From Eubacteriaceae bacterium (lineage in GTDB: Bacteria; Bacillota; Clostridia; Lachnospirales; Lachnospiraceae), in NCBI GenBank assembly GCA_910574895.1, contig CAJTDQ010000009.1:1-64000 (forward strand): a stretch of DNA of 64,000 nt, given 5' to 3'. Under the pieces are notes generated by a model. It made no database searches. It saw nothing but the letters and a program-made list of their open reading frames with translations, and was not told the DNA's origin. Every line of letters starts with the position of its first letter. Positions within the stretch are counted from its first letter, which is position 1. The position numbers were made by a program, and so were the translations under genes. Positions 1,821 to 21,056 of this stretch are shown piece after piece.

Positions 1821-4800
1821 ATGAAACTTAGTAAAACAATGAAAAAAATATGGACATATGTGTGTGTGATTACAATGGTTGTAAGTTCACTTACATTTTA
1901 TAATGACACATATGTAAGAGCGGCAGCACCAGATTGGTCTGGAGTTGCTTACGCAGGAGATGGAGTTGGCGGTGGAAAGTATTCTAACAAGTATAAGTTC
2001 TATTGCGAGGACAGCAGAGTGAATTTAGTTAATATTCAGAAACCAGGGTTTGCAGCAGCAGACAGTTTTTATGTAACTTTTCCTGCAGGAATCGAAAGTA
2101 GTTCTTTGGGTGAGGGAAAATACGACCCACAGGGAGCAGGAATTGCAATTCATTTAGATGCGTTTACTGCACAGGAGACAGAATTTACAGTAACAGATGC
2201 TTTAGGAACATACACATGCTATGTTTATTATGAAGATGGAGAGGGAAACGAAATTGCAACACCGGCACCAACAGAACCGGTTGTAGTAACGGATGGCTCT
2301 GAGATTTTAAAAGGAACAGCATTTACAGATGCAGATACAGAAGCAGATCCGGGTCCGAACGGCTTATGGATTGAATTCGGAGGAGAATATACAAATAATG
2401 GTGATGGAAGTGTATCTGTTGCGGTTCCGGCATATGAGTCAGGAGATAATTGGGCTACACAGTTAAAGCAGAATCAGATTCAATTGAATGCAGGGAAATG
2501 GTATAAGGCTACATATACAATAACATCGGATGTTGATAAAACATTCCAGGGGATGGTTCAGAACAATTCGAATTGGGCTGTATATGCAGAAAATATTACA
2601 AAAGTTGCAGCAGGAGAAACAAAAACAGTTGAGTTTGTGTTCCAGGCAACAACAACGACGAATGCAGTATTGTTTGGAATTATGATGGGATATGTCAGTG
2701 AACCAAGTGAGGCGGCTAATGTGACAATTAGTAATGTTAGTCTGAAGGTTTATAATGAAGAACCATCTACAGGCGAAACAGAGCCGGACGAAACAGATAC
2801 AACACCGGCACCAACAGAACCTGCACCGGTAGAAAAGGGAGATGTTGCTCTCTCAGGTTATAACTGGGCAATTCAGACACCAACTTCAGAAGGATTTGCA
2901 CCTACAGAGTATAATGGATATGGATTTACAGTTCAGGGTATTGCTGCAGATGCAGACCAGTGGAGTTATGGGGCAGTGCTCGATGCAATTGCAGTAACAA
3001 ACGGAGAAACATATACATTAACACTGAATGTTAAGTCTACAGTAAATAAGGTAGTTCCAATCGAATTTACAAATGGAACGGCAATTAACAGAACAATTGC
3101 TGCAACACCGGAAGGAACAACATTTACATATAAATTTACAGCAAAAGCTGATACAGTGAAAATTTATATGCCATTAGGAATTAATACACAGGATGTTGAG
3201 ATAACAGATGCATATGATGTTACGATTTCAGATGTTCAGTTTGATGTTACAGAACCGGATGAGACAGAACCAATGACAACATTACCGGCAGATGCAGAGG
3301 TAACAATTCTTGAACCTTCATTTGCGTTTGATAATAATACCAGCACAAAATATTATGAACTTCATTGGAATGCTGTAGAAGGTGCTGCAACATATACAGC
3401 ATATGTTGATGTAGAAGATGAAGATCATATTGCAACAGCATTTCATAATAACTGGCCATTTAATAAGACTGGTCAGACATATGTTGATCATATCGCAGGA
3501 AAGCCAGGTCAGACACAGAAGTTTATTGTTGTAGCATTTGACGAAGAAGGTAAATTGCTTGCAAGAGGTATTAAGGAAGTAACAACACCAGAATTGACAG
3601 ATGCTGAGAAAGAAGCAGCGGCTGTCGCAGCAAAGTTTAATTCAGCAGATAACTATGCAAAGGGTAAAACAGCAATTGTAAGTTCAGGAAGCAATGCACA
3701 GAATATCGTGGATGGAAATATGGCATCAAGATGGCAGGCATCTACAGCAGGAGAAGATCATGCGGTAGGCAGCGAATTCTTTGGTGTGAATTTAGGTGAA
3801 GTTAAGACAATTGGACAGGTTGTTATTGCATTTGAAGCTTCTTTTGCAGCAGCATATGACGTATATGTAGCAGGAGCAGATGAAGTTTATGGTGATACAC
3901 CGGTTGCATCAGGAACAGCAGATGCAAATAACCTTATCTCTGCAGTAAACTTTGATGAAGTAGAGGCTCAGTATGTTAAGGTTGTAGTAACAGAATTCAG
4001 TGGAAATGCAAGTGCATATGGTACATCAGTATTTGAACTTGCAGTATTACCAAAGGCTGAAGAAGTAACAACACCAACGGAAACAACACCAGCGGAAACA
4101 ACACCGGCAGAGACAGATCCAGTAGGAGATAAGCCGGCAGCACCTGCAGGTTTAGCGCATGCACCAGGAGCAGATGGCACATTACCATTCCATTTTGCAT
4201 GGGGAACAGTAGAAGGTGCAACATCATACAAAGTATATTTGAATGATGAATTTGTAGCTGAGGTTACTACTCCGGATTACAATTTTGATGAAGCATTGTT
4301 TGCTACAGCTGGAGATTATACGATCGCAGTGACAGCAGTAAAAGATGGCGTTGAGTCAGATAAGGCTGCGATTACTTATACAGTACAGGGTGCGGATCCG
4401 GGAACAACACCGGGAGAAACAACACCGGGAGAAACAACACCGACAGAAATTACAATGGATATAGAATTACCTGCTCCGGAAACTGACAACAATTACACCG
4501 TAGGTGGCTATAATATTTATGTTGGACAGTGGAATGGTTCTACTGCAATAGCAGGTGTTGATGCAGGAAATAAAGATCACATTAAGGTACAGCAGAAAAC
4601 AAGTAATTGGGTTGAAGGTGGTGCCTGGGGCTTACAGATTGTAAAGAGCTTTACAGGACTTACAGCAGGAGCAGAATATACAATTGAATGGAAAATTGTA
4701 TCTGCATCCGCAGATGGTAAAGTATTAGTAACAAATAATTCTGCCGAAATTCCACTTACAGGTGGTGAGCAGACATTATCAGGAACATTTACAGCAGATA

Positions 4801-5399
4801 CAGACGGTAATGGTCAGTTTGTTGTTGGAATGGGCTGGGTAGGACTGACAAATCCAATCGAATATTTTGCACCTGTAGTAAAAGATGCAGAAGGAAATGT
4901 TGTATATCCAAAAGATGAAGAAGAGACAACAACGCCATCAGTAATGGAAACAACAACACCAGATACAGCAGAGACAACAACACCGGATGCTGGCGAGACA
5001 ACAACACCGCCAGTAGTAGAGACAACAACACCATCAGTTGTAGAAACTACTACGCAGACACCTGCAACTACGGAGGCTCCAAAGACAACGACAGCAGGTC
5101 CAAAGGTTACAACAACTAAGAAGGCTCTTGGAAAAACAAAAGTAAAGAGTGCAAGCAAGAAGAAAGCAGCAACAAAGGTTAAGATTACATTTAAGAAAGT
5201 GAAAGGTGCTAAGAAGTATCAGGTACAGATTTCAAAGACTAAGAAGTTTAAGAAAGTTCTTGTTAAGAAGACAGTGAAGAAAGTAAGAGTAACTGTTAAG
5301 AGCAAGAAACTTAAAAATAAGAAGAAGCTTTATGTAAGAGTAAAAGCTGTTGGGGCTAAGAAGTGGTCAAAGGCTAAGAAGATTAAAATTAAAAAGTAG
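1821..5399 (+). CDS. Large secreted multi-CBM protein with Lys-rich C-terminus
   Basis: This 1,192-aa protein carries a signal peptide (1-34). After an N-terminal beta-rich domain (about 35-140) come two CBM4/9-like jelly-roll segments (about 160-312 and 341-475), an FN3-like segment (493-590) and a discoidin-like domain (607-745) closely similar to that of the preceding protein. Then follow another FN3 domain (772-858) and a third CBM-like domain (877-1030) that is nearly shared with the next gene (NNYTVGGYNIYVGQWNGS). Thr/Pro linkers separate the domains. The C-terminal 90 residues (1103-1192) are the Lys-rich FN3-like module. No catalytic domain is recognisable, so a scaffold or glycan-binding surface role is inferred. 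The start fits GAAAGGAG upstream. Confidence 0.85.
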   Translation: MKLSKTMKKIWTYVCVITMVVSSLTFYNDTYVRAAAPDWSGVAYAGDGVGGGKYSNKYKFYCEDSRVNLVNIQKPGFAAADSFYVTFPAGIESSSLGEGKYDPQGAGIAIHLDAFTAQETEFTVTDALGTYTCYVYYEDGEGNEIATPAPTEPVVVTDGSEILKGTAFTDADTEADPGPNGLWIEFGGEYTNNGDGSVSVAVPAYESGDNWATQLKQNQIQLNAGKWYKATYTITSDVDKTFQGMVQNNSNWAVYAENITKVAAGETKTVEFVFQATTTTNAVLFGIMMGYVSEPSEAANVTISNVSLKVYNEEPSTGETEPDETDTTPAPTEPAPVEKGDVALSGYNWAIQTPTSEGFAPTEYNGYGFTVQGIAADADQWSYGAVLDAIAVTNGETYTLTLNVKSTVNKVVPIEFTNGTAINRTIAATPEGTTFTYKFTAKADTVKIYMPLGINTQDVEITDAYDVTISDVQFDVTEPDETEPMTTLPADAEVTILEPSFAFDNNTSTKYYELHWNAVEGAATYTAYVDVEDEDHIATAFHNNWPFNKTGQTYVDHIAGKPGQTQKFIVVAFDEEGKLLARGIKEVTTPELTDAEKEAAAVAAKFNSADNYAKGKTAIVSSGSNAQNIVDGNMASRWQASTAGEDHAVGSEFFGVNLGEVKTIGQVVIAFEASFAAAYDVYVAGADEVYGDTPVASGTADANNLISAVNFDEVEAQYVKVVVTEFSGNASAYGTSVFELAVLPKAEEVTTPTETTPAETTPAETDPVGDKPAAPAGLAHAPGADGTLPFHFAWGTVEGATSYKVYLNDEFVAEVTTPDYNFDEALFATAGDYTIAVTAVKDGVESDKAAITYTVQGADPGTTPGETTPGETTPTEITMDIELPAPETDNNYTVGGYNIYVGQWNGSTAIAGVDAGNKDHIKVQQKTSNWVEGGAWGLQIVKSFTGLTAGAEYTIEWKIVSASADGKVLVTNNSAEIPLTGGEQTLSGTFTADTDGNGQFVVGMGWVGLTNPIEYFAPVVKDAEGNVVYPKDEEETTTPSVMETTTPDTAETTTPDAGETTTPPVVETTTPSVVETTTQTPATTEAPKTTTAGPKVTTTKKALGKTKVKSASKKKAATKVKITFKKVKGAKKYQVQISKTKKFKKVLVKKTVKKVRVTVKSKKLKNKKKLYVRVKAVGAKKWSKAKKIKIKK

Positions 5400-7495: not shown

Positions 7496-7513
7496 TCTTA
7501 TTAAGGTTAAACG

Positions 7514-7538
7514 AGAGAGTGGTATATACCACTCTCTT
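7514..7538 (+). terminator. Rho-independent terminator or symmetric hairpin
   Basis: AGAGAGTGG TATATA CCACTCTCT is a perfect stem just after the stop at 7495. The following T tract is short. Confidence 0.65.
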
Positions 7539-7656: not shown

Positions 7657-8388
7657 ATGAAGAAGTTTTGGGCAATAGCATGTACGGTAATTATGCTGGC
7701 GGTTACAATGACAGTTGCAGGAGTACAGAATCCTGATGCAGGAGATATAGACGGGGACATAAATCGAAATCCTTGGGAAGATTTGTTTACGACGGCAGTC
7801 ACAACGGAGCAGGTAACGACAGCAGAGCCGGACACTACATCAGTAGAGCCGGTTACGACTCCGGAAGAGGTGAATACTACGCCGGAACAATCAGAAACCA
7901 CATCAGAAGAGAAGGATACTACAATAAATGAAGCCGATACTACGTCGGATGTATCAGAAACTACCTCAGAAATTTTGACATTAGATATAACAACAGTTTC
8001 AGATAGTACATCTATAATTACGGAACAAAAAACTACAAAACCGATTATTACAGGGGATGAGGTTACTCATAATACAACAAAGAGCATAAAAGTTGGACAA
8101 ACAAAGATAAGAAAAGCAATTAAAAAACAAAATTCAAAGAAAATTTTATTGAAACTGAAAAAAATAAAAGGGGCAAAAAAATATCAGATACAGGTTTCGA
8201 AAAATAAAAGATTTAAGAAAGTTTTAGTGAAAAAGACTGTTAAGAAGACGAATGTAAAGATAAACAGTAAAAAGGTTATTCGTAAGAAAAAATTATACGT
8301 GAGAGCCAGAGCTGTTAAAATCGTAAAAAGCCAAAAATATTATGGTAAGTGGTCAAAGGCTAAAAAGATAAAAATAAAGAAAAAATAA
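7657..8388 (+). CDS. Small secreted Thr-rich protein with GDI-NPW motif and Lys-rich C-terminus
   Basis: This 243-aa protein has a signal peptide (about 1-22). The short mature N-terminus contains GDINRNPWEDLF (residues 33-44), a motif also present in the next two genes. A long Thr/Glu/Ser linker (45-140) with TTSE- and TTPE-type repeats leads to a Lys-rich FN3-like module (about 150-243) ending KWSKAKKIKIKKK. No globular CBM or enzyme domain lies between signal and module, so this is a minimal exported motif-linker-basic-module protein. It lies close upstream of the next gene (15 bp) and is probably co-transcribed with it. Function unknown. Confidence 0.8.
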   Translation: MKKFWAIACTVIMLAVTMTVAGVQNPDAGDIDGDINRNPWEDLFTTAVTTEQVTTAEPDTTSVEPVTTPEEVNTTPEQSETTSEEKDTTINEADTTSDVSETTSEILTLDITTVSDSTSIITEQKTTKPIITGDEVTHNTTKSIKVGQTKIRKAIKKQNSKKILLKLKKIKGAKKYQIQVSKNKRFKKVLVKKTVKKTNVKINSKKVIRKKKLYVRARAVKIVKSQKYYGKWSKAKKIKIKKK

Positions 8389-8403
8389 GGAATGATTAAT
8401 ATA

Positions 8404-8922
8404 ATGAAGAATATATTGCATAAGATAGTAGTTTTTATTTTGGTTATAACTTTAGGATTGTGTGTACCAACACGCAATATAAATGCAGATGGTTTTGATG
8501 GAGATATAATGGAAAATCCTTTTGCACATTTATTTGTAGATGGAGAACCGGGAGATGCTGTAATAGGAAATCAGGTTCAGAAACCGACCGTTCAAGCAAC
8601 AAAAAAAAGATTAAAAAAATTATTAAAAACTTCTATAAAATCGGCAACAAGAAAAAATAAAGAATCTAAAAAAGCAAAGGTTGTTTTAAAGAAAATAACA
8701 AAAGTAAAAGGAGTTAGATACCAGATTAAATATGCATCAAACAAGAAATTTAAAAAAGCAAAGGTTAAAACATTTAAAAATAATAAAATTACAATAAAAA
8801 AATTAAAAGTCAGAAGAAATTATTACATAAAAGCGAGAGCGTATGCAAAAGGCAGCAATGGAGAAAAAGTTTATGGTAAATGGACAAAACGCAAGATGAT
8901 TAAGTTTCGTAAGAAAAAGTGA
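8404..8922 (+). CDS. Small secreted Lys-rich protein with GDI-NPF motif
   Basis: The protein has 172 aa from the ATG at 8404. An in-frame ATG at 8392 sits directly on the only Shine-Dalgarno-like AAGGA, so 8404 is preferred. With this start the motif GDIMENPFAHLF falls at residues 33-44, exactly as in the preceding gene. A signal peptide (about 1-28) comes first. The remainder (about 65-172) is a divergent Lys-rich FN3-like module (VKGVRYQIKYASNKKFKKA, YYIKARAYAKG, YGKWTKRK). There is no Thr linker. Function is unknown; retention on the anionic cell wall is a guess from charge. Confidence 0.75.
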   Translation: MKNILHKIVVFILVITLGLCVPTRNINADGFDGDIMENPFAHLFVDGEPGDAVIGNQVQKPTVQATKKRLKKLLKTSIKSATRKNKESKKAKVVLKKITKVKGVRYQIKYASNKKFKKAKVKTFKNNKITIKKLKVRRNYYIKARAYAKGSNGEKVYGKWTKRKMIKFRKKK

Positions 8923-9017
8923 TTATAAGCATTGCTTTCTTTGATAAAATATGCTATAAATTTGTATAGATATTAGATTCCATATAAATTTATTGCATTA
9001 TTGTGAGGAGTTATATT

Positions 9018-9167
9018 ATGAGAAAGTATGAGACGCCAGAATTGAAATCAATTTATTTTGAATTGAATAACAGAATTATGGATGGATATGAGGGTGGTGA
9101 CATTGGAGACAACCCATGGGGAGAGTTATTTACTGAGGAAGGTTCAGGGGATGACCCTTTACAGTAG
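9018..9167 (+). CDS. 49-aa acidic peptide with YxxPxL start and GDI-NPW motif
   Basis: The peptide starts MRKYETPELKSIYFE and carries GDIGDNPWGELF at residues 27-38, then an acidic tail ending DDPLQ. A good ribosome-binding site (GAGGAG, 7 bases upstream) and a strong terminator 31 bases downstream support a real gene. There is no signal peptide or membrane segment. The N-terminal Y-x-x-P-x-L spacing resembles leader peptides of some RiPP precursors (lasso type), but no cyclase, protease or RRE gene is visible nearby. The motif at 27-38 matches those in the two secreted proteins just upstream. Function unknown. Confidence 0.7.
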   Translation: MRKYETPELKSIYFELNNRIMDGYEGGDIGDNPWGELFTEEGSGDDPLQ

Positions 9168-9198
9168 AAATAGAATTAATTTAAAGAAGACTATACAG

Positions 9199-9225
9199 CC
9201 AAGTGCATTTTGCACTTGGTTTTTT
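9199..9225 (+). terminator. Rho-independent terminator
   Basis: CCAAGTGCA/TGCACTTGG stem with a run of Ts, closing the transcript of the 49-aa peptide. Confidence 0.9.
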
Positions 9226-9531: not shown

Positions 9532-12500
9532 ATGAAAGGAACTATGAGAAGAGCAGTGTCAATTGTTCTTGCATTGGCGATGGTCATTACTAGTTTAAGT
9601 TATACGCCAAAAACAGTTGAAGCTGCAGAAGATTATTCAGGATTGAGTTTTACTGAAGTTGTTGGTATGAATGGATCATATGCATGGAATCTGAAAGAGA
9701 ATAACATAGCAGGCTTTAGTGGAACGCCAGAGTTTTATGGTCAGAATTATATGAAGATAGTATATTCTGCCGATAATAAAACAGAAGATACCAAAATTAC
9801 GGTAGACGGTGTGCCAAAGACTCTCAGTGATGAGGAAGTTTTTGAACAGGCACTTGGCATGACGACCTTTTTGGTATCTGCCTTATCAGATAACAACTAT
9901 CACGAACTGGTAATTACAACTACCACAGGAAAGGCTGTTATTATTTTAAAGAAAGGAACTCCAAGCGGCAGTGGTGAATTGGATACTACATCTGGAACAT
10001 CAGAAACAACAACTGCCACTCAATCAGGTGGAGATTATTCAGATCTTAATTTTGAGACGATTGAAAACACAACGAATCCAAATAACGGAATTGAACATGC
10101 GGTGGCATGGATTCAGCCGGCAGAAGGAGTAAGATTTAGTCTTAAGAGATATGGAACTGTTGGAGCTGGAAACAGGGTGTTTTTAGAGTTCGATTATGCA
10201 CCGGTTTATAAAGATGTTAAAGTAAACGGAGTTGCACTTCCAACTGATAATGATCACAATGCTGGTGGTGCATGGCTGGGATTCTTTGACAGCGATTTAA
10301 CTGACAACGCATACAATGTTGTTACAGGTACAAATGGTAATGGTCAGGAATTCAGTTTTGTTATTCGAAAAGGAACTCCTAGTGAGCAGTCTACTACAGG
10401 CGGAACACTCACAGATTTAACAGCAGTTACCAATGCTTTCGTATATAATTTTACAGAAGCAGGTGAGGGCTACAAGGTATACTTTAAAGATGGTAATGTA
10501 TTACCGGAAGGCAGTACACGTAAATATATCGTAAGTATAGGAGAGCAGACAGTTGAGGTTGCTGAATCAGGAGCTTCAGTTAATGTAGATGGACTTGGAT
10601 TAACAGATGGAACAAAATATGATGTAAAAGTAAAAGCTGTTTATACAGATGGCGAGGGAACTGAAATTGTTTCACCTGATTCAGAAGTAACACAGTTTAC
10701 ATACAAGGCAAGTGCAGTAAATGCCTATGATGATGGAATTGCACAGATTTTTATTAACACATCAAGAACTACATCAGGTACTAAGATTACACAAGATGTA
10801 GATATTTATAAGGATGAGTCAAAGATTAAATTTGATGCGGCGATTACAGTAAAAGGTGCTGACGGAACAGTTGCAGCATGGGATTATGGTACAGCGAATG
10901 TACGTGGAAATTCTACAAAGTCAGCACAGAAGAAAGCATATAATATTAAGTTTAATGCTGCACATGATTTGTTTGGAATGGGTTCAGCGAAAAAGTGGAG
11001 CCTTCTTGCAAACTGTTTTGATAAAACATTAATGAGAAATCAGGTTGCTTTTGATTTTTATAATAAGTTAGAAGCACAGCATGCCAGCGGCAATGCATTT
11101 AGTAGTAAATGTAAGCCGGCAGATTTATATGTAGATGGAAACTATTTAGGTTCTTATTTATTAATTGAATCTGTAGAAGAAGGAGTTAATCGTGTAAATA
11201 TTAATGCAGGAAATGCAAATAATGATGACATTCTTCTTGAAATTGATAATTCTGGTAGAGATGAAAGTACAGACCCTCACTTAAAGGGAAGAACAAGCAA
11301 ATATGACATGTATTTTGCAGTAAACGAACCAGAAGATATTGCAACAGATCCACAGTATGATGGAAAGAGAGACAGAACCCTTGCATATTTGGAAGAGTTT
11401 GAGACTGCATTACAGGCAAAGAACTTTACACAGATATCTAATCTGATCGATTTGGAGTCATTTGTAGATTTCTATATTGTATCTGAATTATTTAAGACAA
11501 AAGATATTGGTTTTAGTTCTACAAGATATTACATTCAGTCACAGACAGATGCAGAAGGCAATGTTACAGCTAAGAAATTATATGCAGGACCACTTTGGGA
11601 TTTGGATTTATCCAGTGGTAATGCTCTTGATAATGAGAAATATGATGACCTTTATGCACAGACAGAAAATAAATGGTTTGGTGCTTTAATGGCAGTACCT
11701 GAGTTTGCAGAATTAGTAAAGACAAGATGGGAAGAATTATTACCAACTATCAAAGATCTTTATGCTGCAGAAGGTGCTGTTACCAGAACATATAATGAAC
11801 TGAAAAAGTCTGCAGATAATAACTACTCTAAGGCTTATAACGTATTCTCATTAGCAGAAAACGGATACAATAATGGATGGGTAATTAATGCTGTATATGG
11901 TGCATCACAGGTTTTAGGACAAAATGTTTATGGCTCAATGGTTACACATGACACATATGAAGAGTATGTTGATGATTTCAGAACATGGTTAAGCAATAGA
12001 ACTACATACCTTACACAGGCATTTGGTGCCAGAGATGTAGAGGAAGTATTAGAGAATTTAGAAGAACAGGCAAAGAGTCCTGTATATAATCTGGCTTATC
12101 AGAAAACAGTAACAATAACAGGCGGATTTAATGAAGGAGTTGTTGAATCTTTAACAGATGGTGATTTTAATACAAAAGTTAATGTTACAGATGGAACTGG
12201 TGGTAATGGAAGTCAGGGAGCGGCAAGCTTTATTGTTGATTTAGGAACATATTATCCGGCAAACTCTATTGACAAAATTATTATCAGATATCAGGATGAG
12301 AGAGATGTTGTCAGTGTTGCAGGACATAGTTACAGCATCCAGTATTCAGTACATGGAAACTTCTTCCGTGATGCTGTACCGGAAAAGAAGGTTGCATCTT
12401 TGAGTGCTGAAACACCACAGACAGTTGATGATGTTTCATATATGGAAGGTAACGTTAGATACATCCGTGTGAATTATCCGACAACAGCTGTTTATGGTAT

Positions 12501-15500
12501 GCAGATCCGAGAGATTGTTGTATTGGATTCAGACAAGAATGCTGTAGAAGTAGAACCAATTATGTTGGAAAGTCCAAAGTTTACTGCAACAGCAGACGGA
12601 TTTAATAAGATTCAGGTGACAATCGATAGTGTTGAAACACAGAGTGATTATGAATATTATGTTATAATTGATGGTAAAACGGTTGATAAAGTTTTCGCAG
12701 GAACACATGTGTTTGAAAATATCGATGGCGGAACACATAAAGTTGACGTTGTTTCTTATAGAAAGGGCTCAACATCAAATCAGAATGAAACACAGGAAAT
12801 TGAAGTAGATGTAAAATCTTTCATGGAATATACAGCCGGAACAAGAGATATAGCATTTGAAGCACAGAAAGAAATTAATGGTGCATTGAATTATGATTAT
12901 ACAGATTACGATGGTGTAACAGCCAGTGCATCAAGTAATGAGGGAGCAGTTAACAGTGCATTTGACAATAATGTGGGAACTGGCTGGCAGGCTGATCAGA
13001 ATGATAAAGATAATCAGTTTATTATAGTCAATTTAGGTGCTATACGTAGCATTAATCAGATTGAAGCAATCTGGGAAAATGCAAGTGCAAAAGATTATAC
13101 AATTGAAATATCTGAAGATGGAACAAATTATAAAGAGGTTGCTGCAATCAAGAATGCGGCAGCTGGAAATAACAGACATGATACAATTTCTTTTGCAGAA
13201 TCTATTACAGGACAGTATGTAAAGGTTCGTGCTACTGCACGTACAATGGAAGAGTGGGGAGTAAACCTCAAAGAAATTGCAGTTTATGGACCAAATACAG
13301 AAGATGAAGAGGTTACTACTTCTTCAACGATTAAACCGGTAGCTGATCCGGCAGATGCTGTATGGAAAGAGATACCAAATTCTAATGGGGAGTACTGGTA
13401 TTATATTCCGGCAGAATATACAAGTAACTATGGTGTGGTACAGATAGAAACAGACGGAAAAGGTAAGAATATCTATATTGCAGTGGATGGTGTTGCAGCT
13501 CCATATAGTGCAGTTAAGATTAATGGTATAGACATGCCGATTCCAGAAGGTGCTTTTGCAAGAATTTATTTAAGTGATTTACCTGAAAATGGTGCATACA
13601 ACTTATATATAAAAGGCCAGTTAGGCAGAGAGACAAATATGTGGGTTAAAAAAATGACAAAAATGAATTATAAACCTACAGGTCTTGCTGTAACACAAAG
13701 TGGAACAAATGCTGTTATTAACTGGAATGCACCGGCAGACGCAGGTAATGAGGGGTATGAAGGTGTTGGTTATTCCGTAAAAGTTGGTGACACAACGATT
13801 ACAGGACCACTGGTAGATACAACATATACTTTTGATATGGGAGAATTGCCATATGGAAGTTATGAAGTAACTGTAAATACAGTAGATAAGGATGGAAAGG
13901 TTCTTGATTCAGCAAATACAACATTGCAGTATAAAGATCCGGAGGCTGTCAGCAGTACACTTCAGATAAAATATCAGTGGGAAGGTCTTAGAAGAGAAGT
14001 TTTATCTTGGGATAAAGTAGAAAATGCCACAGGATATGCTGTTTATGCTGACGGAAAACTTTTTGAGACAACAACTGATTTAAGTATAAATGTCAGAGCA
14101 TTTGCTTATGCAAGTAACGAAAATGAGAATGCACAGTTGACAACTGTTGGACAGCATACAACAAAGGTTGTAGCATTATTTAATAATGCTGAGGCTCCGG
14201 CATTTGATGAAATTAATCCGAAACATGTAATTGGAGAGGATAGTTTTAATTTAGATGTAAACTATATATTCGGACGATTTACAGATACATGGAATAAGAA
14301 TAAAGAATTAAGTTTGTGGGCATTTACTATTTGTGAAAATGTATGTGAACCTGTAAACGGCACTGGTGGTATCGATAAAGGTGCAAGTGCAAAAGCAGCT
14401 TTCCACCCGGATGGTTCTGCAAGCCTTGTTATTAATGATGTAGGTAAACATAGAACATTCCAGAGTATGGATAACCCTGGAGATCAGGCATGGACAATTA
14501 AGGTAGGTTCTTATAATGCGCCTGCAAAAGTAGGACAGTTAACGCATTTGTCATACGATATTAGTGGACCTGCTTCATTAATCGGTAAGACAATCCGAAT
14601 TAAGTTATGCCCTGATGAATGTGATCAGGATGGAACTTATTTAGAGGCTGAATATCTGAATAATTATTATACATTTGAGGATGACGGAAACGGCGGGGCT
14701 GTTATTCATTTCTCAGAAAGTTTCGAATCCACGAATGATACTTATGACATGTTCTTTGGCTTGGGGTTATTACAGAATCCGGATGATGAGAACAAGGAAC
14801 CGATTGAACTTGATTTCTCAGAAGCTGATACTACAGATATTTATGGTGTTAAGAGTGTAACAGCTTCATCTGTATACCCTACACCGGATGAAGACGGAAA
14901 TGTAGACCATAATAAACATGGTATTATGGTAAGCTGGGAAACAGATGTACCATATCGTTTGCGTAAGCAGTATAAATATGAAGTTTATATTGATGGAGTA
15001 AAAGTATCAGAAGAGGATGCTGTAACAGGTACAACATGGTATGGTCCAAGCGACGGATACGCTCATGGTGATTATCATGTAGAGGTTCGAAGTATCTATA
15101 AAGGAACTGTAACAGGTACAGCACAAGATGATGTTACTGTTTTTGATAGAACAAAGCCGGATGTGGTAATTTCCAGCATGGTAGTTCAGAACAATGATAG
15201 TAAAGAATATTATACAGGTGACACGGTACCGGTTGATGTAACAATTAAAAATATCAGTACTATAGATATAGAAGTGGCAGAAAATCAGGAAATTTCAGTA
15301 CATCTTTATTTGAGAAAAGCTGATGGAACACTGACAGCCCAGAAAGCTTACTTTATTGTTGATCCAAATGAGGAAGGCAAGAAAGTATTAAAGGCTGGTC
15401 AGGAAGTTACAAAGACTATGAATTATATTGTTGATCCTGCTGATGCCGGAGATGCTTGGAGATATACATTTGTAGCAACAGCAGATGCCGACCAGGTTAT

Positions 15501-18500
15501 TGACGAAAGTGATGAAGAGAACAATACTTATGTAAGAACTTTCGTATTCTCTGAGAAACCCGATGCAGTTGAATTCCATAATGATGGTAAAGACATCAGC
15601 ATTACATGGCCGGGTTCTGATTATGCAGACCATTATGTGATTAATTACACTTCTAATGGAGAAGCAAAGAGTATAGAAACAAGAAATACAGATACAACTT
15701 ATGTTTTGACAGATATTTTAGATAATAATACAACTGTTGATGTATATACTGTTCGTGCAAATGGTGCTCAGGTTATTCGAGCTACAGGAACAGCACTTGC
15801 AGATTTGGAATTAGTTAATGTTAAGGCAACAGAAGCAGACGGAGTTATTTATGCTGACAAAGATAACGAAGTTGCTTTCACAGTTAAAAATGTTGGTTTT
15901 GCAAAGGCTTCAGGGAACTTCCCGGCGAAAGTGGAAGACGGTAATGGATGGGGATTCACACCGGATGGTGATGATTCCGTAGTAAATCCAAACGAAGAGG
16001 TTGTTATCAAATCAGTCAATGGTGTTGCAGCAGGAAAATATGCTGATAAAGTAGGACAGTTAATTACTGTTTGGGCAAATGCCGATGATGCTTCAGAAAA
16101 TGAAGGTAACGGATATATTGCCGAAGTTGATGATAAGGGCACAATAGACCGTACAAGAAACAACTTTAAAGAATTTACTTTTGCAATTCTTAATGGAGGT
16201 AAGTTAACATTAAATGCTCCTACAGCAGAAAATGATAAAGTTACAGCTACTTGGACAGATGAAAATGTAGGCGAAGGCAAATTAATTGCAGAAGGTTATC
16301 AGCTTGTGTATATTTCAAATGGCGAAACAAAGACAGTAGATGTGACAGGAAATGAATATACTTTTAATGAGCCGATTGACAATAATACAGAAGTAAAAAT
16401 CATGGCAAAATATGAGGGACTGGAAGATTACTATAGAATAGCAGGAGAGAAGGCTTTAGCAGACCTTGTTATTGAAAAAGTAACAATACCGGAAAAAACA
16501 TATTTAGAAATTGCATTTGATGCAGTAGTTCAGATTAAGAATCAGGGTACAGCACAGGTTCCAGCAGCTTCTGAAGAGTTTGAAGAAGGTTATGGCGGAT
16601 GGATTATTGTTGCTATTAACAATGACAATTTCATCAATGAAGGTGGAAATCCAAATAACCACTATATTTCAGCTCATACAGCAAAAGGATTGATGGCCGG
16701 TGTGAGCACAGAAATTACACTTTCAGGTATTACTGCTACCGCAGTTAATGCAGAGCCTGGATATGATGTTCAGTTTAAGGTAGATGCTCCTGGATTTGCA
16801 GAGGCAGAGGCAAATGGATTTATTACCGAAAGTAATGAAGATAATAATACACAAAATGTAAATATTAAAGTAGATGAAAAACCATATGTTCAGAATAAAG
16901 AAATGGATTGGACTCCACTTTATGATGAAACAGATAAGACGAAACCTTATGAATTCAAAGTTGCCAATGTAACACAGCCGGCACACATTGAATACAAGGT
17001 ACTTGATACTTCGTATACAGATGTAGATTATGCGGATATCTTTAAACAGTATAACGGATACAATACAGAATGGTTCTCAATGGGCATGGGTGCTTTAGAC
17101 GAAGAGCATCTGATGTTCAAAGAAACAGAAAAAGGATTTTTAACATTAACAGAGTTTGCACAGGTTAAGGCTGAACTTTGTGAAAATTATTCAGAGTACA
17201 AAGGCACAGAGAATGATGCAAATTATGTAATGTTATCAACAACAAAAGATATTGTAGATTTGGAAGGAAATGTGCTTGTAGCAGCAAACAGTGGTGGTGC
17301 AGCAGGATCCCGAATGATTTACAATGGACAGGGATTCAATTTCTATGCAAACAGTTATGCTACTGGTAAGTACTACATTTATAAGATTAAGAATCAGGAA
17401 AATGGACAGTTTGTAACAGTAGCGTTAAGAGTTGTAGGTGAAAATGGTCAGTGGACAAAGGTATTGCCGACAGATGATACAAATCCGGATGCTTTATCAT
17501 TCTGGTATCATGGAGAACATTGTGATTTGATGGAAGAAGGATTAAAAACATCTGAAGATGTGAAACCTTATTTAACAACAGGTGCAATGTATTATGACGG
17601 AAGTGACTTAGGTCTTGCAACAATTACATGTTATAACGGTGGTTATCTGACATTAGTACCGGATACAACAGAACCTCTTGGAGCACAAGGTGAGTGGAAG
17701 ATTCAAATTGTACGTGCAGGCGTTGATGCTGAGGGCAACTTTGTGAAACCAACAGAGGAAATTACAGATGAAAACTCAAAAGTAATTACAAGAGTTCCGG
17801 GACAGTTTAATATTCAGGGAGACAGACTCCTTCTGAAATTACCGGAATTAATGCAGGATTTACCAATTCATAGCGCAAATGGCGGACAGAAAGACGAAAA
17901 TTATTTCTTTATGAAGTTGTATTCCGATACAACAAAGAGACCAAATGAGTATATTGAGATTCCTATTATGATTAGGGCTGATATTCCTCAGATTGAGGCA
18001 CCACAGGGTGTTATTGCAAAGATACGTAAAAATACTGCAGATGAATCTGTTTTAACAGTGTCATGGGATCAGACAGCTAATCAGACAGGATATGATTATC
18101 ATTATGATGTTCAGGTATTTGATAAGGAAGATGGTACTCTCATTGGAGAAGTAAAAGATGCGACTCCAAAGCAGGCTCATGTATTTGATGTAAGTAAGTA
18201 TGCAATAGATGACACTTCTACAGTTTTTGTAAAAATTACTGCAAACTGGTGTGGTCAGTCTATAGCTTATACAGAAGTTGTTGAGAATACATATGAGAAA
18301 GGCTGGAGACCAATCGGTGGTGATGATGAAATTGATGTACATGCAGGAAGGACAGCAGATACAAAAGTTACTGTATTAGGCAAATTCTCTTTCTATGATG
18401 ATGTACAGAACAACCATACATATACTATTGTAGGATATAATGGAATGTACATGAGTCTGACAGGTAACCCATTATATATCGGTGGTGATCCTGAAGATGA

Positions 18501-19692
18501 AACAACACAGGCAGAAGTACACATTTCAAAGGGTGTTACCAGTGAAGCAGAACTGGATACAATGACAGATGATGATTATACTGATGAAACAAATGATGTT
18601 TACTTATATGCAGAAGGTATGATGCAGATTAATACACAGAATCAGTTCCAGGTAACTTATCAGACAACTTACTATAATGTTAAAGTTATCAAGGGCGAAA
18701 ATGTATCTGTTATTAAGATGAAGGTTGAAGTAAAACCAGGTGATGTGGAAGTCAAAGCATTCCAGATGAATACAGATACATCAGAAGGTGCAGTTTCCGA
18801 GTTTAATCCTTCATTCAGAGCTGTATCAAGAGCAAGTAAGGTTGTTGCAGTAGGAGATCCTATTGTAGTAGAAGACGAAAATGGTGTAACAATTAATAAC
18901 TATCCAATTGCTTCTGTTCAATCTTATGGTACTATGTATACAGTAAATGAAGGTGCAACGACAGATACGATGAAGTTTGGTGATACATATGTTTCAAATG
19001 CTGAGATTGCTGATGGTGTTTATTCATATGAAGCAACTAAGGAAAATGGAACATTAAACAACTGGCCACAGGCAGATGATGCAAATTCATTCTATTATGC
19101 ATTAACATTTAAGGGTAAATCATATTTACTTGATATGTTAGATAAGGATTATACAGTACGTGCTTATGCGGTAACTGAAGATGGTGATATTGTATATGGT
19201 AATAAAGTTGAAACTACAAGTATTTACAAGATTGCAAAAGTATTGTATAATGGCAACTTGATGAGCAGAAAGTCAGCACATGATTTCTTGTATGATAATG
19301 TATTAAACATTGTAGATATTAAGAATAATAGGGCAGGTATTGCAAATGCAATGTTCAAAGCATTGAATGTCACAAAGACTACAGATGAAGCGTATGCATT
19401 AATTAATAATATGTACAAAGATTTGTATCGATATATTACATTGACAGGTGTTTATAAGGTTGACAGATATTATAAACGTGGAGCATTTGTATGTAAGACA
19501 ATGACAATGGGCAAGGATACAGAGAAAGCATTGCTTGAACTTTTAAATACAGTTACAACAGATGGTAAAGAGTACACTACTGTTGCTGATTGGATTGAAA
19601 ATGAAACAGAGAACTATGATAAATGTAAAGGATTCTATAAGAGAGTTGAGTTTTTTAATAAAACTACTGTTATAGGTGGAGAGGATATCTAG
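9532..19692 (+). CDS. Giant secreted CotH-kinase-fold surface protein (3,386 aa)
   Basis: The ATG at 9532 is chosen because it has GGAAGGAAG upstream and opens a signal peptide (1-34, cleavage near VEAAEDYS). An upstream in-frame ATG would put 32 non-signal residues in front. Two related beta domains (about 36-145, 165-285) with Thr linkers and an FN3 segment come first. A CotH kinase-type domain (about 400-835) follows, with NVRGNSTKS, AKKWSLLANCFDKTLMRNQ and the probable metal-binding GPLWDLDLSSGN. After it lie two discoidin-like domains (852-1000, 1106-1253), FN3 segments, a CBM-like domain (about 1575-1755), three CARDB-like domains (about 1872-2008, 2089-2219, 2309-2446), more beta modules and a helical C-terminus. 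CotH family members phosphorylate coat proteins in Bacillus; many clostridial versions sit in surface or cellulosomal proteins. It lacks the Lys-rich module of its neighbours. Confidence 0.85.
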   Translation: MKGTMRRAVSIVLALAMVITSLSYTPKTVEAAEDYSGLSFTEVVGMNGSYAWNLKENNIAGFSGTPEFYGQNYMKIVYSADNKTEDTKITVDGVPKTLSDEEVFEQALGMTTFLVSALSDNNYHELVITTTTGKAVIILKKGTPSGSGELDTTSGTSETTTATQSGGDYSDLNFETIENTTNPNNGIEHAVAWIQPAEGVRFSLKRYGTVGAGNRVFLEFDYAPVYKDVKVNGVALPTDNDHNAGGAWLGFFDSDLTDNAYNVVTGTNGNGQEFSFVIRKGTPSEQSTTGGTLTDLTAVTNAFVYNFTEAGEGYKVYFKDGNVLPEGSTRKYIVSIGEQTVEVAESGASVNVDGLGLTDGTKYDVKVKAVYTDGEGTEIVSPDSEVTQFTYKASAVNAYDDGIAQIFINTSRTTSGTKITQDVDIYKDESKIKFDAAITVKGADGTVAAWDYGTANVRGNSTKSAQKKAYNIKFNAAHDLFGMGSAKKWSLLANCFDKTLMRNQVAFDFYNKLEAQHASGNAFSSKCKPADLYVDGNYLGSYLLIESVEEGVNRVNINAGNANNDDILLEIDNSGRDESTDPHLKGRTSKYDMYFAVNEPEDIATDPQYDGKRDRTLAYLEEFETALQAKNFTQISNLIDLESFVDFYIVSELFKTKDIGFSSTRYYIQSQTDAEGNVTAKKLYAGPLWDLDLSSGNALDNEKYDDLYAQTENKWFGALMAVPEFAELVKTRWEELLPTIKDLYAAEGAVTRTYNELKKSADNNYSKAYNVFSLAENGYNNGWVINAVYGASQVLGQNVYGSMVTHDTYEEYVDDFRTWLSNRTTYLTQAFGARDVEEVLENLEEQAKSPVYNLAYQKTVTITGGFNEGVVESLTDGDFNTKVNVTDGTGGNGSQGAASFIVDLGTYYPANSIDKIIIRYQDERDVVSVAGHSYSIQYSVHGNFFRDAVPEKKVASLSAETPQTVDDVSYMEGNVRYIRVNYPTTAVYGMQIREIVVLDSDKNAVEVEPIMLESPKFTATADGFNKIQVTIDSVETQSDYEYYVIIDGKTVDKVFAGTHVFENIDGGTHKVDVVSYRKGSTSNQNETQEIEVDVKSFMEYTAGTRDIAFEAQKEINGALNYDYTDYDGVTASASSNEGAVNSAFDNNVGTGWQADQNDKDNQFIIVNLGAIRSINQIEAIWENASAKDYTIEISEDGTNYKEVAAIKNAAAGNNRHDTISFAESITGQYVKVRATARTMEEWGVNLKEIAVYGPNTEDEEVTTSSTIKPVADPADAVWKEIPNSNGEYWYYIPAEYTSNYGVVQIETDGKGKNIYIAVDGVAAPYSAVKINGIDMPIPEGAFARIYLSDLPENGAYNLYIKGQLGRETNMWVKKMTKMNYKPTGLAVTQSGTNAVINWNAPADAGNEGYEGVGYSVKVGDTTITGPLVDTTYTFDMGELPYGSYEVTVNTVDKDGKVLDSANTTLQYKDPEAVSSTLQIKYQWEGLRREVLSWDKVENATGYAVYADGKLFETTTDLSINVRAFAYASNENENAQLTTVGQHTTKVVALFNNAEAPAFDEINPKHVIGEDSFNLDVNYIFGRFTDTWNKNKELSLWAFTICENVCEPVNGTGGIDKGASAKAAFHPDGSASLVINDVGKHRTFQSMDNPGDQAWTIKVGSYNAPAKVGQLTHLSYDISGPASLIGKTIRIKLCPDECDQDGTYLEAEYLNNYYTFEDDGNGGAVIHFSESFESTNDTYDMFFGLGLLQNPDDENKEPIELDFSEADTTDIYGVKSVTASSVYPTPDEDGNVDHNKHGIMVSWETDVPYRLRKQYKYEVYIDGVKVSEEDAVTGTTWYGPSDGYAHGDYHVEVRSIYKGTVTGTAQDDVTVFDRTKPDVVISSMVVQNNDSKEYYTGDTVPVDVTIKNISTIDIEVAENQEISVHLYLRKADGTLTAQKAYFIVDPNEEGKKVLKAGQEVTKTMNYIVDPADAGDAWRYTFVATADADQVIDESDEENNTYVRTFVFSEKPDAVEFHNDGKDISITWPGSDYADHYVINYTSNGEAKSIETRNTDTTYVLTDILDNNTTVDVYTVRANGAQVIRATGTALADLELVNVKATEADGVIYADKDNEVAFTVKNVGFAKASGNFPAKVEDGNGWGFTPDGDDSVVNPNEEVVIKSVNGVAAGKYADKVGQLITVWANADDASENEGNGYIAEVDDKGTIDRTRNNFKEFTFAILNGGKLTLNAPTAENDKVTATWTDENVGEGKLIAEGYQLVYISNGETKTVDVTGNEYTFNEPIDNNTEVKIMAKYEGLEDYYRIAGEKALADLVIEKVTIPEKTYLEIAFDAVVQIKNQGTAQVPAASEEFEEGYGGWIIVAINNDNFINEGGNPNNHYISAHTAKGLMAGVSTEITLSGITATAVNAEPGYDVQFKVDAPGFAEAEANGFITESNEDNNTQNVNIKVDEKPYVQNKEMDWTPLYDETDKTKPYEFKVANVTQPAHIEYKVLDTSYTDVDYADIFKQYNGYNTEWFSMGMGALDEEHLMFKETEKGFLTLTEFAQVKAELCENYSEYKGTENDANYVMLSTTKDIVDLEGNVLVAANSGGAAGSRMIYNGQGFNFYANSYATGKYYIYKIKNQENGQFVTVALRVVGENGQWTKVLPTDDTNPDALSFWYHGEHCDLMEEGLKTSEDVKPYLTTGAMYYDGSDLGLATITCYNGGYLTLVPDTTEPLGAQGEWKIQIVRAGVDAEGNFVKPTEEITDENSKVITRVPGQFNIQGDRLLLKLPELMQDLPIHSANGGQKDENYFFMKLYSDTTKRPNEYIEIPIMIRADIPQIEAPQGVIAKIRKNTADESVLTVSWDQTANQTGYDYHYDVQVFDKEDGTLIGEVKDATPKQAHVFDVSKYAIDDTSTVFVKITANWCGQSIAYTEVVENTYEKGWRPIGGDDEIDVHAGRTADTKVTVLGKFSFYDDVQNNHTYTIVGYNGMYMSLTGNPLYIGGDPEDETTQAEVHISKGVTSEAELDTMTDDDYTDETNDVYLYAEGMMQINTQNQFQVTYQTTYYNVKVIKGENVSVIKMKVEVKPGDVEVKAFQMNTDTSEGAVSEFNPSFRAVSRASKVVAVGDPIVVEDENGVTINNYPIASVQSYGTMYTVNEGATTDTMKFGDTYVSNAEIADGVYSYEATKENGTLNNWPQADDANSFYYALTFKGKSYLLDMLDKDYTVRAYAVTEDGDIVYGNKVETTSIYKIAKVLYNGNLMSRKSAHDFLYDNVLNIVDIKNNRAGIANAMFKALNVTKTTDEAYALINNMYKDLYRYITLTGVYKVDRYYKRGAFVCKTMTMGKDTEKALLELLNTVTTDGKEYTTVADWIENETENYDKCKGFYKRVEFFNKTTVIGGEDI

Positions 19693-19737: not shown

Positions 19738-19920
19738 ATGAGAAAGATAGGGAAATACGAGTCTCCCGAAATTGAAATTACTAAATTTGAAATGGCGAGA
19801 GGTATTATGGCTGGTGTAGGTGAAGGTGGAACCGGCGGTGACGGTGATATCGTCGAAACAAGTGGAGATATGGAATCAGATCCAGATGCTGGTGGAGATG
19901 CACCAATCTGGCCAGAATAA
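19738..19920 (+). CDS. 60-aa acidic peptide with YxxPxI start
   Basis: The peptide begins MRKIGKYESPEIEITKFEMA, clearly related to the N-terminus of the 49-aa peptide at 9018. Its C-terminal half is Gly/Asp/Glu-rich, contains GDGDIVETSGD and ends DAPIWPE. TAGGAGGAATG gives a good ribosome-binding site. It lies 45 bases after the giant CotH gene and 50 bases before the next secreted protein, so co-transcription is likely. No signal peptide. Function unknown; a modified-peptide precursor or a secreted signalling peptide are alternatives without supporting neighbours. Confidence 0.7.
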   Translation: MRKIGKYESPEIEITKFEMARGIMAGVGEGGTGGDGDIVETSGDMESDPDAGGDAPIWPE

Positions 19921-19970: not shown

Positions 19971-20735
19971 ATGAACAATGTGTTTCGTAAAGTCAGTACA
20001 GTGTTGCTTGTTATTGTATTAATTACAGGAGACATTATAGGATTGAATTCAAATAGTGTTAAGGCAGACACTGTATTGACTAGCCCCTTGATTTCTATTG
20101 TAGGATATCAGATTAAGACAAATGTTACCACAGACGAAAAAGTTTCTTTTCGTACTGTTTGTAAGGCTCCGGATAAAGGAAGTGTAATTACAGTTAATGA
20201 AAAGAATTATATTGTCGAAAATCTGGGAACAATCTATGTGAAGGATCCAAATAGAAGTGGAAATCATAGTAATATTGTTCTTAGCAAATCTTATACATTA
20301 TTAGATTCTGTTCCATGTGTAGAATATGGCATAGAAGATCAGGCATTCAAGTATATAGGAAAGAGTATGTATAGAGGTACATATCTGACATTTGGATATA
20401 TTGCTACTGAAAATGGTATTATTGAAAAAAAGAATGGTTATACATCTTATATCAGGACATTGACGAATATGGATTCGTTTGTTTTGAACTCTTTATTAGT
20501 GAGAGCTTTTGTTGAGGCTGTAGATGAAGATGGAAATAATGTTATCATTTATGGAGAATCTGCATCAAAGACATCTGTAGCACATATTGCTGGGGAGACT
20601 TATAAAAAGGGTGCAGCACCTAACAAAGAAGGACATGAATACTTGTATGATAGTATTTTGCATACATTGCCTACCAGTCATCCATATTATATGAATGAAC
20701 CACTAGAGTATGGCTGGGCAGGAGTTATTTCATAA
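19971..20735 (+). CDS. Secreted protein related to the C-terminal region of the giant CotH protein
   Basis: This 254-aa protein has a signal peptide (about 1-33, SNSVKADT). The body is beta-rich. Its later half, with LLVRAFVEAVDEDGN, IIYGES, HIAG and EYLYDSIL, aligns by eye with the segment TVRAYAVTEDGDIVYGN through HDFLYDNVL near the end of the 3,386-aa protein (about residues 3100-3260). NYIVENLGTIYV resembles INNYPIASVQSYGTMYT there. A shared, unnamed surface-protein domain is inferred. RBS AGAAAGGGG precedes the ATG. Confidence 0.75.
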   Translation: MNNVFRKVSTVLLVIVLITGDIIGLNSNSVKADTVLTSPLISIVGYQIKTNVTTDEKVSFRTVCKAPDKGSVITVNEKNYIVENLGTIYVKDPNRSGNHSNIVLSKSYTLLDSVPCVEYGIEDQAFKYIGKSMYRGTYLTFGYIATENGIIEKKNGYTSYIRTLTNMDSFVLNSLLVRAFVEAVDEDGNNVIIYGESASKTSVAHIAGETYKKGAAPNKEGHEYLYDSILHTLPTSHPYYMNEPLEYGWAGVIS

Positions 20736-20774: not shown

Positions 20775-21056
20775 AAATTATATAAAAAAACGTTGATAGA
20801 GACAGTAGTTTATTTGCAAACGTTACAGAGAGTCTGGTGTTGGTGGAAGTCAGATATTAGTAGCAGATAAATGAAAATCACTCTGGAGTTGCAGCCCGAA
20901 ATATTGAAAGTCAGATTTTGATATGACATTTAAGTAGGCGCTGACGGTTTCTCCCGTTATAGAGAACACATATAAAGGGATTTCCCGAGTATGCTGTTAA
21001 AGGTGGTATAACGTAAGTATTTTTCAGGCTTTCGTCCTTAACAGGACGGAAGCCTT
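20775..21056 (+). promoter_or_regulatory. T-box leader of ileS (isoleucine)
   Basis: This is a classical T-box leader. Stem I ends in GAAAATCACTCTGGAG with ATC (20877-20879) placed as the isoleucine specifier codon. A conserved T-box-like AAGGTGGTATAACG lies at 21000-21013, and a terminator stem AGGCTTTCGTCC/GGACGGAAGCCT followed by Ts spans 21027-21055. Uncharged tRNA-Ile would stabilise the antiterminator and switch on ileS. Confidence 0.92.

Follow-up and report, generated by a model that had tools for sequence, protein, structure and literature searches.

A 12-residue motif, GDIxxNP[WF]xxLF, is carried by two secreted proteins and by a short peptide encoded directly after them in one transcriptional neighbourhood of a Lachnospiraceae genome. 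In the window, the whole 64 kb stretch of DNA that was analysed, the three copies have identical spacing and are the sole matches to the pattern in six frames. About 1e-5 chance matches are expected in the window from amino-acid composition; the observation, which goes back to a sequence-only reading of this DNA, is confirmed and is not due to chance. A profile of the motif run on the window genome (E<=1) also gives three matches, namely the copies in the two secreted proteins, P1 and P2, and in the peptide, peptide 9018. Tentatively, and on sequence patterns for the most part, GDIxxNP[WF]xxLF is taken here to be a surface docking motif that is tethered on proteins and may also be released as the core of a peptide of the linear polyphosphorylated peptide (LPP) type. 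The unit and its downstream neighbours comprise the following features, all on the forward strand:

7513..7538, +, intrinsic terminator ahead of the unit (11-pair stem, 4-base loop, T-rich tail)
7657..8388, +, ORF of secreted protein P1, 243 aa
7753..7788, +, motif copy 1, GDINRNPWEDLF, P1 residues 33-44 (pattern match)
8404..8922, +, ORF of secreted protein P2, 172 aa
8500..8535, +, motif copy 2, GDIMENPFAHLF, P2 residues 33-44 (pattern match)
9018..9167, +, ORF of the 49-aa YxxP peptide, candidate LPP-type precursor (ATG at 9018, AGGAG ribosome site)
9018..9080, +, putative leader of peptide 9018, MRKYETPELKSIYFELNNRIM (leader end predicted)
9096..9131, +, motif copy 3, GDIGDNPWGELF, peptide residues 27-38 (pattern match)
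9197..9221, +, intrinsic terminator 3′ of peptide 9018 (11-pair stem, 3-base loop, T tail)
9532..19692, +, next gene, a 3386-aa CotH-domain surface protein (Pfam CotH E 1.2e-40, F5/8 type C, fn3)
19738..19920, +, second YxxP peptide, 60 aa, whose core is without the NPW part and has GDGDIV only
19971..20735, +, secreted protein adjoining the second peptide, with the C-terminal end EPLEYGWAGVIS (from the translation)

P1, P2 and peptide 9018 follow one another in this order and are flanked by the terminator-like hairpins at 7513-7538 and 9197-9221, forming one terminator-bounded unit. P1 is laid out as a signal peptide, the motif, a Thr-rich linker and a Lys-rich module, and P2 as a signal peptide, the motif and a Lys-rich FN3-like module, with the signal peptides recognized in the sequence and by our own script. 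The motif starts at residue 33 in both secreted proteins and at residue 27 in peptide 9018, which has no signal peptide, all in agreement with the sequence-only reading. Relatives of the peptide are found in 6 sister genomes. Farther downstream, the second YxxP peptide (19738-19920) lies 3′ of the CotH gene and 5′ of the secreted protein at 19971-20735. At seven other loci (L032, L037, L038, L043, L044, L049 and L221), the large neighbours of YxxP peptides end in a Y.W tail like EPLEYGWAGVIS and not in a Lys-rich module. A T-box leader (Rfam RF00230) at 20784-21042 precedes gene 21083, which resembles isoleucyl-tRNA synthetase.

P1 and P2 share 39% identity over 93 aa of the Lys-rich C-terminal module (E 2e-8) and are therefore homologous, so that the motif common to these two is a matter of ordinary descent and it is the copy in peptide 9018 that calls for explanation. 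The contexts had initially been described as otherwise unrelated and the conservation as independent; neither description holds for the secreted pair. The module is strongly basic, with a net charge over the last 100 aa of +43 in P1 and +38 to +43 in P2, and it ends 7 genes of the window. Identical codons at shared motif residues are few (4/7, 3/8 and 2/7 in the three copy pairs), which indicates that the three motif copies did not arise by recent duplication.

AlphaFold2 folds the module of P2 confidently into a beta-sandwich (mean pLDDT 82), and the best solved matches returned by Foldseek for it include FN3 domains; a search for PDB sequence relatives of P2 found none. In the same model the motif of P2 has a pLDDT of 55-57 and residues 41-44 form a short helix; low confidence of this kind is to be expected for a linear motif. 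Docking of the motif on its own Lys-rich module was considered, given the attraction between an acidic peptide core (-9) and the strongly positive P2 module, and was set aside: in the AlphaFold2 model of P2 the motif is not confidently docked on that module, a result still compatible with intermolecular binding.

Across genomes, the motif profile (E<1e-3) finds matches in 17/23 genomes of the genus, one of gut bacteria, vs 0/171 others, where the best match is at 0.011; as its rows, from 23 segments, were drawn from 11 of the 17 positive genomes, matches in those 11 arise partly by construction, and the other 6 contributed no rows. Absence from orthologous loci and frequent occurrence in unrelated proteins had been named at the outset as findings against the motif. 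It is present in the orthologous loci, and at E<1e-3 it was not found outside the genus in the 171 other genomes. Its position is nearly fixed: by a relaxed pattern, and with genes and signal peptides called by our own simple scripts, the first copy falls at residues 28-41 in 35/36 secreted motif proteins, the exception being that of L114, at residue 165. Proteins of L045, L048, L119 and L124 have two copies each, those in L048, L119 and L124 being without GDI. The parts that follow the motif may be unrelated to one another, such as the Lys-rich module of P1 and P2 and the Ig repeats of the L124 protein. At a locus with genes resembling polysaccharide genes, L113, a 548-aa secreted protein (3328-4974) has eight motif-like copies, several of them 17-21 residues apart.

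The peptide itself, used as a query, has a match at E<=1 in 25/98 genomes. The same gene order, with a motif-bearing YxxP peptide placed after one secreted motif protein or two, recurs in sister species (G000, G002, G003, G005, G009, G013 and G017), and a motif-bearing YxxP peptide beside motif proteins is seen at 7 loci in 7 genomes, referred to as class A. M1, Y4, P7, F14, M21, N32, P33, W34 and F38 are invariant in the seven class A peptides. The reverse does not hold, since at least 9 loci (L042, L046, L045, L116, L117, L122, L115, L125 and L113) have motif proteins with no adjoining motif-bearing peptide, as judged from gene lists or a tested gap; the gap in L042 has one ORF with FxxP and without the motif. 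Several of the genomes compared are incomplete metagenome-assembled genomes (MAGs), which makes such absences weak. An obligatory link between motif and peptide is thus not seen, and of the proposed co-occurrence the Lys-rich secreted proteins stand, whereas YxxP peptides accompany the motif in only part of the loci.

Placement behind the signal peptide or in a linker, the repeats, an N-P followed by an amphipathic WxxLF end and the varied C-terminal parts together fit a linear motif with a single binding partner. The earlier proposal of a recognition or docking motif is borne out in this behaviour (17/23 vs 0/171 genomes, a fixed position, repeats), but not in its argument from independent occurrence in unrelated contexts. 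Amphipathic linear motifs of the WxxLF/FxxLF type have hydrophobic residues at i, i+3 and i+4. The motif described here shares this spacing and has a short helix in the P2 model; it differs in being bacterial and predicted to be extracellular, with a GDIxxNP part in front. A docking motif appears to be the most economical reading of these patterns. A search for a candidate partner domain found none. Of five neighbouring proteins scanned in relatives' loci, four have GH94, GH17, GH16 or CotH domains, and on this basis the partner could be part of a surface assembly that handles glycans. A repeated docking-like element, on surface proteins encoded in the vicinity of CotH and glycoside hydrolase genes, is reminiscent of the dockerin-cohesin pairs of cellulosomes; here, in contrast, the motif has 12 residues, and neither dockerin nor cohesin is matched in P1, P2 or peptide 9018 by Pfam. 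A dockerin-like element, being without Pfam support, was rejected.

The leader of peptide 9018 (KYETPELKSIYFE...) is of the YxxP kind, and leaders of this kind are bound by lasso-type RiPP recognition elements (RREs), as reported in PMC12710340. Tyr and Pro are invariant across 20 leaders of the genus. A leader profile (E<=0.1) has matches in 23/23 genomes of the genus and in 11/171 others, some of the 11 being weak, and since it was built from loci of the genus, peptide 9018 included, the matches there are partly by construction. PF05402, an RRE family, is over its cut-off in 23/23 genomes of the genus vs 12/37 others, with some of the matches in longer proteins. The window genome (G000) has three such matches, and G013, which has the motif peptide and is 65% complete, shows only a weaker match to the RRE family, and one of a different kind.

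Two gene cassettes of the window genome are built around such RREs. One (C3) consists of a nucleotidyltransferase gene (PF14907, NTP_transf_5), an HprK-like gene, an RRE, an S26-like gene and an ABC exporter, and the other (C4) of an HprK-like gene, an RRE and an S26-like gene, with no NTP transferase or exporter seen beside it. For the RREs of the two cassettes, the best NCBIfam matches are lasso RRE models, below cut-off; matches of the S26-like gene to SPase I and of the HprK-like gene to ScmC/HprK-related models are below cut-off as well. In the loci examined there are 22 distinct cassette-type RRE genes, whose neighbours were chosen by position only. Directly downstream, 18 of them have a gene of 120-175 aa, with SMxP, HR and GDN in 16/18, as in signal peptidases. 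Directly upstream, 18 have a gene of 200-300 aa, with SGxGKS in 16 and SGxGKT in 2. Read from translations, RRE cassettes adjoin YxxP peptides in L064, L074, L159, L161, L162, L168, L207 and L209. No RRE cassette is found in the 64 kb window, so that any link between peptide 9018 and this machinery would be in trans.

LPPs were described in 2026 (Popov et al., Nat Commun; PMC13381572). For a Paenibacillus LPP cluster, that study reports that a SipW-like peptidase cleaves in an RRE-dependent manner and that core Ser3 is polyphosphorylated. Judged by their sequences, the cassette genes are the LPP gene set: in common with the clusters of PMC13381572 there are a YxxP leader, a discrete RRE, an HprK-like kinase, an S26/SipW-like peptidase with Ser, His and Asp motifs, an NTP transferase and an MsbA-like exporter, without the lasso peptidase B2. 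The likeness extends to position, as the window-genome cassette with PF14907 lies, from the translations read, 3′ of genes resembling a capsule phosphatase, a chain-length regulator and a tyrosine kinase. Peptide 9018 is placed, on predicted features, beside this described class. It differs from the LPPs of PMC13381572 in leader spacing, which departs from YxxPxVLxHQxIxFETxxS, and in adjoining secreted surface proteins rather than a cassette, with a core common to those proteins. It further has IMDG where others have ITTSG and is thus without the phosphorylated core Ser of LPPs, which makes it LPP-like in its leader and perhaps not phosphorylated at that place; a peptide of L158, also from the window genome, has the core Ser. 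In the main text of PMC13381572, the terms 'secreted protein', 'surface protein', 'lipoprotein' and 'Clostridia' have zero occurrences. In another family of the order, a YxxP peptide (L168, 7256-7447) lies beside an HprK-like/RRE/S26-like cassette and has ENPWGS in its core.

Lasso peptides of rumen Lachnospiraceae, as listed in PMC7533575, resemble the present system in a [W/Y]xxP leader and in HprK, PqqD and nucleotidyltransferase partners. The listed lasso cores start with Gly, whereas most peptides here have a residue other than Gly after IM. Lasso B2 (PF13471) is over its cut-off in 0/23 genomes of the genus, with one sub-threshold match in G014. A lasso peptide identity was rejected on the absence of B2 over cut-off and the mostly non-Gly residue after IM.

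Sharing between a peptide core and a neighbouring protein was scored as z against shuffled cores for 58 peptides, after 3 with identical cores had been dropped. A z>4 is reached by 17/126 neighbours with a signal or anchor sequence vs 0/107 other neighbours, in counts that include one spurious ORF (L215:5008) and from which the gene caller missed the peptides of L039 and L049. The 17 sharing neighbours go with 14 peptides, which fall into 5 types; seven of these peptides are class A, where sharing is partly by construction because these loci (L031-L036) were fetched with the motif-bearing window peptide as the query, and L064 and L074 came in through RRE matches. Four peptide types besides class A thus share a motif with an adjoining secreted or membrane protein. 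A single lipoprotein in L064, and likewise in L074, is matched by both of the YxxP peptides that adjoin the RRE cassette (z 4.0 to 8.3), by the first through a C-terminal GFGPLIDG or GFGPLI and by the second through an internal stretch. L162 is organized in the same way, and its two peptides score z 7.4 and z 2.7. In a genome of another genus (G029), a peptide and an anchored protein share the tail DEDGWTxIIVKP at one locus (L223) and EYELPFIP at a separate one (L172).

Sharing is far from universal. Peptides selected by leader, 38 from L158-L224 and 20 script-picked from 40 further loci (17/20 of family f11), share a motif at z>4 in 3/57 cases. In the second set of 20 peptides, 17 of them from this other family, there is no sharing (0/25 signal/anchor neighbours, 0/37 others), and with 0/20 in that set, sharing by every YxxP peptide is ruled out. 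Co-variation within class A was rejected too, as only 1/7 peptides (L036) matches the proteins of its own genome better than those of every other genome. In the 58-peptide set, z>4 is reached neither by the second window peptide nor by its relatives in class B. Three class B peptides (L127 8118, L171 4390 and L175 6028) carry PGNIITNP[WF], and that of L127 also DETMTDIPW; these stretches resemble the longer start of the L034 secreted protein (GDIIENPW...DVTDIPW).

YxxP peptides usually lie 3′ of a large secreted protein, and core similarity tracks the similarity of that protein's C-terminus (Mantel r 0.775 over 63 pairs, reached by 0/2000 permutations and inflated by related and duplicated loci). 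This link through position and core/tail correlation appears to be general but is weaker than motif sharing. In L158 (7449, 11378), L159, L163, L169 and L174, a YxxP peptide and a large secreted protein form a unit that is present in tandem; the peptides are identical or nearly so and the last 70 residues of the proteins are likewise identical or nearly so, which suggests that peptide and protein tail duplicate together.

Three other accounts of the shared motif have to be weighed against docking. The motif could be a substrate mark: proteins and peptide alike would be acted on there by one surface- or export-linked enzyme (a protease, for instance, or a glycosyl- or nucleotidyl-transferase), with no binding of a structural partner. 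An NTP transferase is part of LPP clusters, although no activity of it was detected in the heterologous host used in PMC13381572, cassette C3 of the window genome has NTP_transf_5, and the motif recurs in linkers, all of which would suit such an enzyme. Modification of this kind is nonetheless unlikely: the motif is without an invariant Ser, Thr, Tyr, Lys or Cys, and the secreted proteins are without a YxxP leader and would therefore not attract RRE-guided enzymes of the cytosol.

The likeness may also stem from descent only, the peptide core having been gained by recombination with the mature start of a neighbour and kept without a common function. The genes are adjacent, and the likeness reaches D-G-[YF] before the motif and GSGD/GEPGD after it, as a captured segment would. 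The seven class A peptides, however, hold N-P-W and F invariant while other core positions vary, identical codons are few, and similar sharing with different sequences is found at other loci, which together render shared ancestry on its own improbable. Equally improbable is that an unmodified copy of the core on secreted or membrane proteins blocks the producer's own receptor, for immunity or as a signalling inhibitor. The lipoprotein of L064 and L074, with stretches like the cores of both adjoining peptides, the corresponding layout of L162, and the anchored proteins of L172 and L223, which end with nearly their own peptide's tail, are what such a self-protection would produce. Against it, the motif proteins of the window genus include surface proteins with Lys-rich modules and Ig repeats, often without a motif-bearing peptide, one motif protein has eight motif-like copies, and the receptor remains hypothetical.

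In the docking reading, GDIxxNP[WF]xxLF would be a genus-specific short linear motif that docks to a partner at the cell surface. The secreted proteins would display a tethered copy where their mature part begins, and gene 9018 would encode it as the core of a YxxP-leader peptide handled by LPP-type machinery in trans. The leader of peptide 9018 would be bound by an RRE and cut off by an S26-like peptidase, and an ABC exporter would secrete the core. The free core may then take the same partner as the tethered copies, and thereby cap, compete with or signal about surface assembly. In the open-access literature, surveyed mostly as listings, no prior account of a motif common to such a peptide and its neighbour was found.

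More speculatively, the LPP-type peptides of Lachnospirales may be companions of particular surface proteins, a subset of them being exported soluble copies of a tethered docking motif. In the loci analysed, LPP-type precursors are connected with particular secreted surface proteins through their position, through the correlation between core and partner tail and, for five types of peptide, through a motif that both carry. The Discussion of PMC13381572 calls the roles of LPPs and paeninodins unknown; the role of LPPs, left open there, becomes testable at the bench with defined partners, with the common motif as a concrete starting point for asking what LPP-type peptides do. If the reading is true, the product of a RiPP-type pathway would be a competitor or signal for surface assembly that can be released, and an orphan class of peptides would gain a function.
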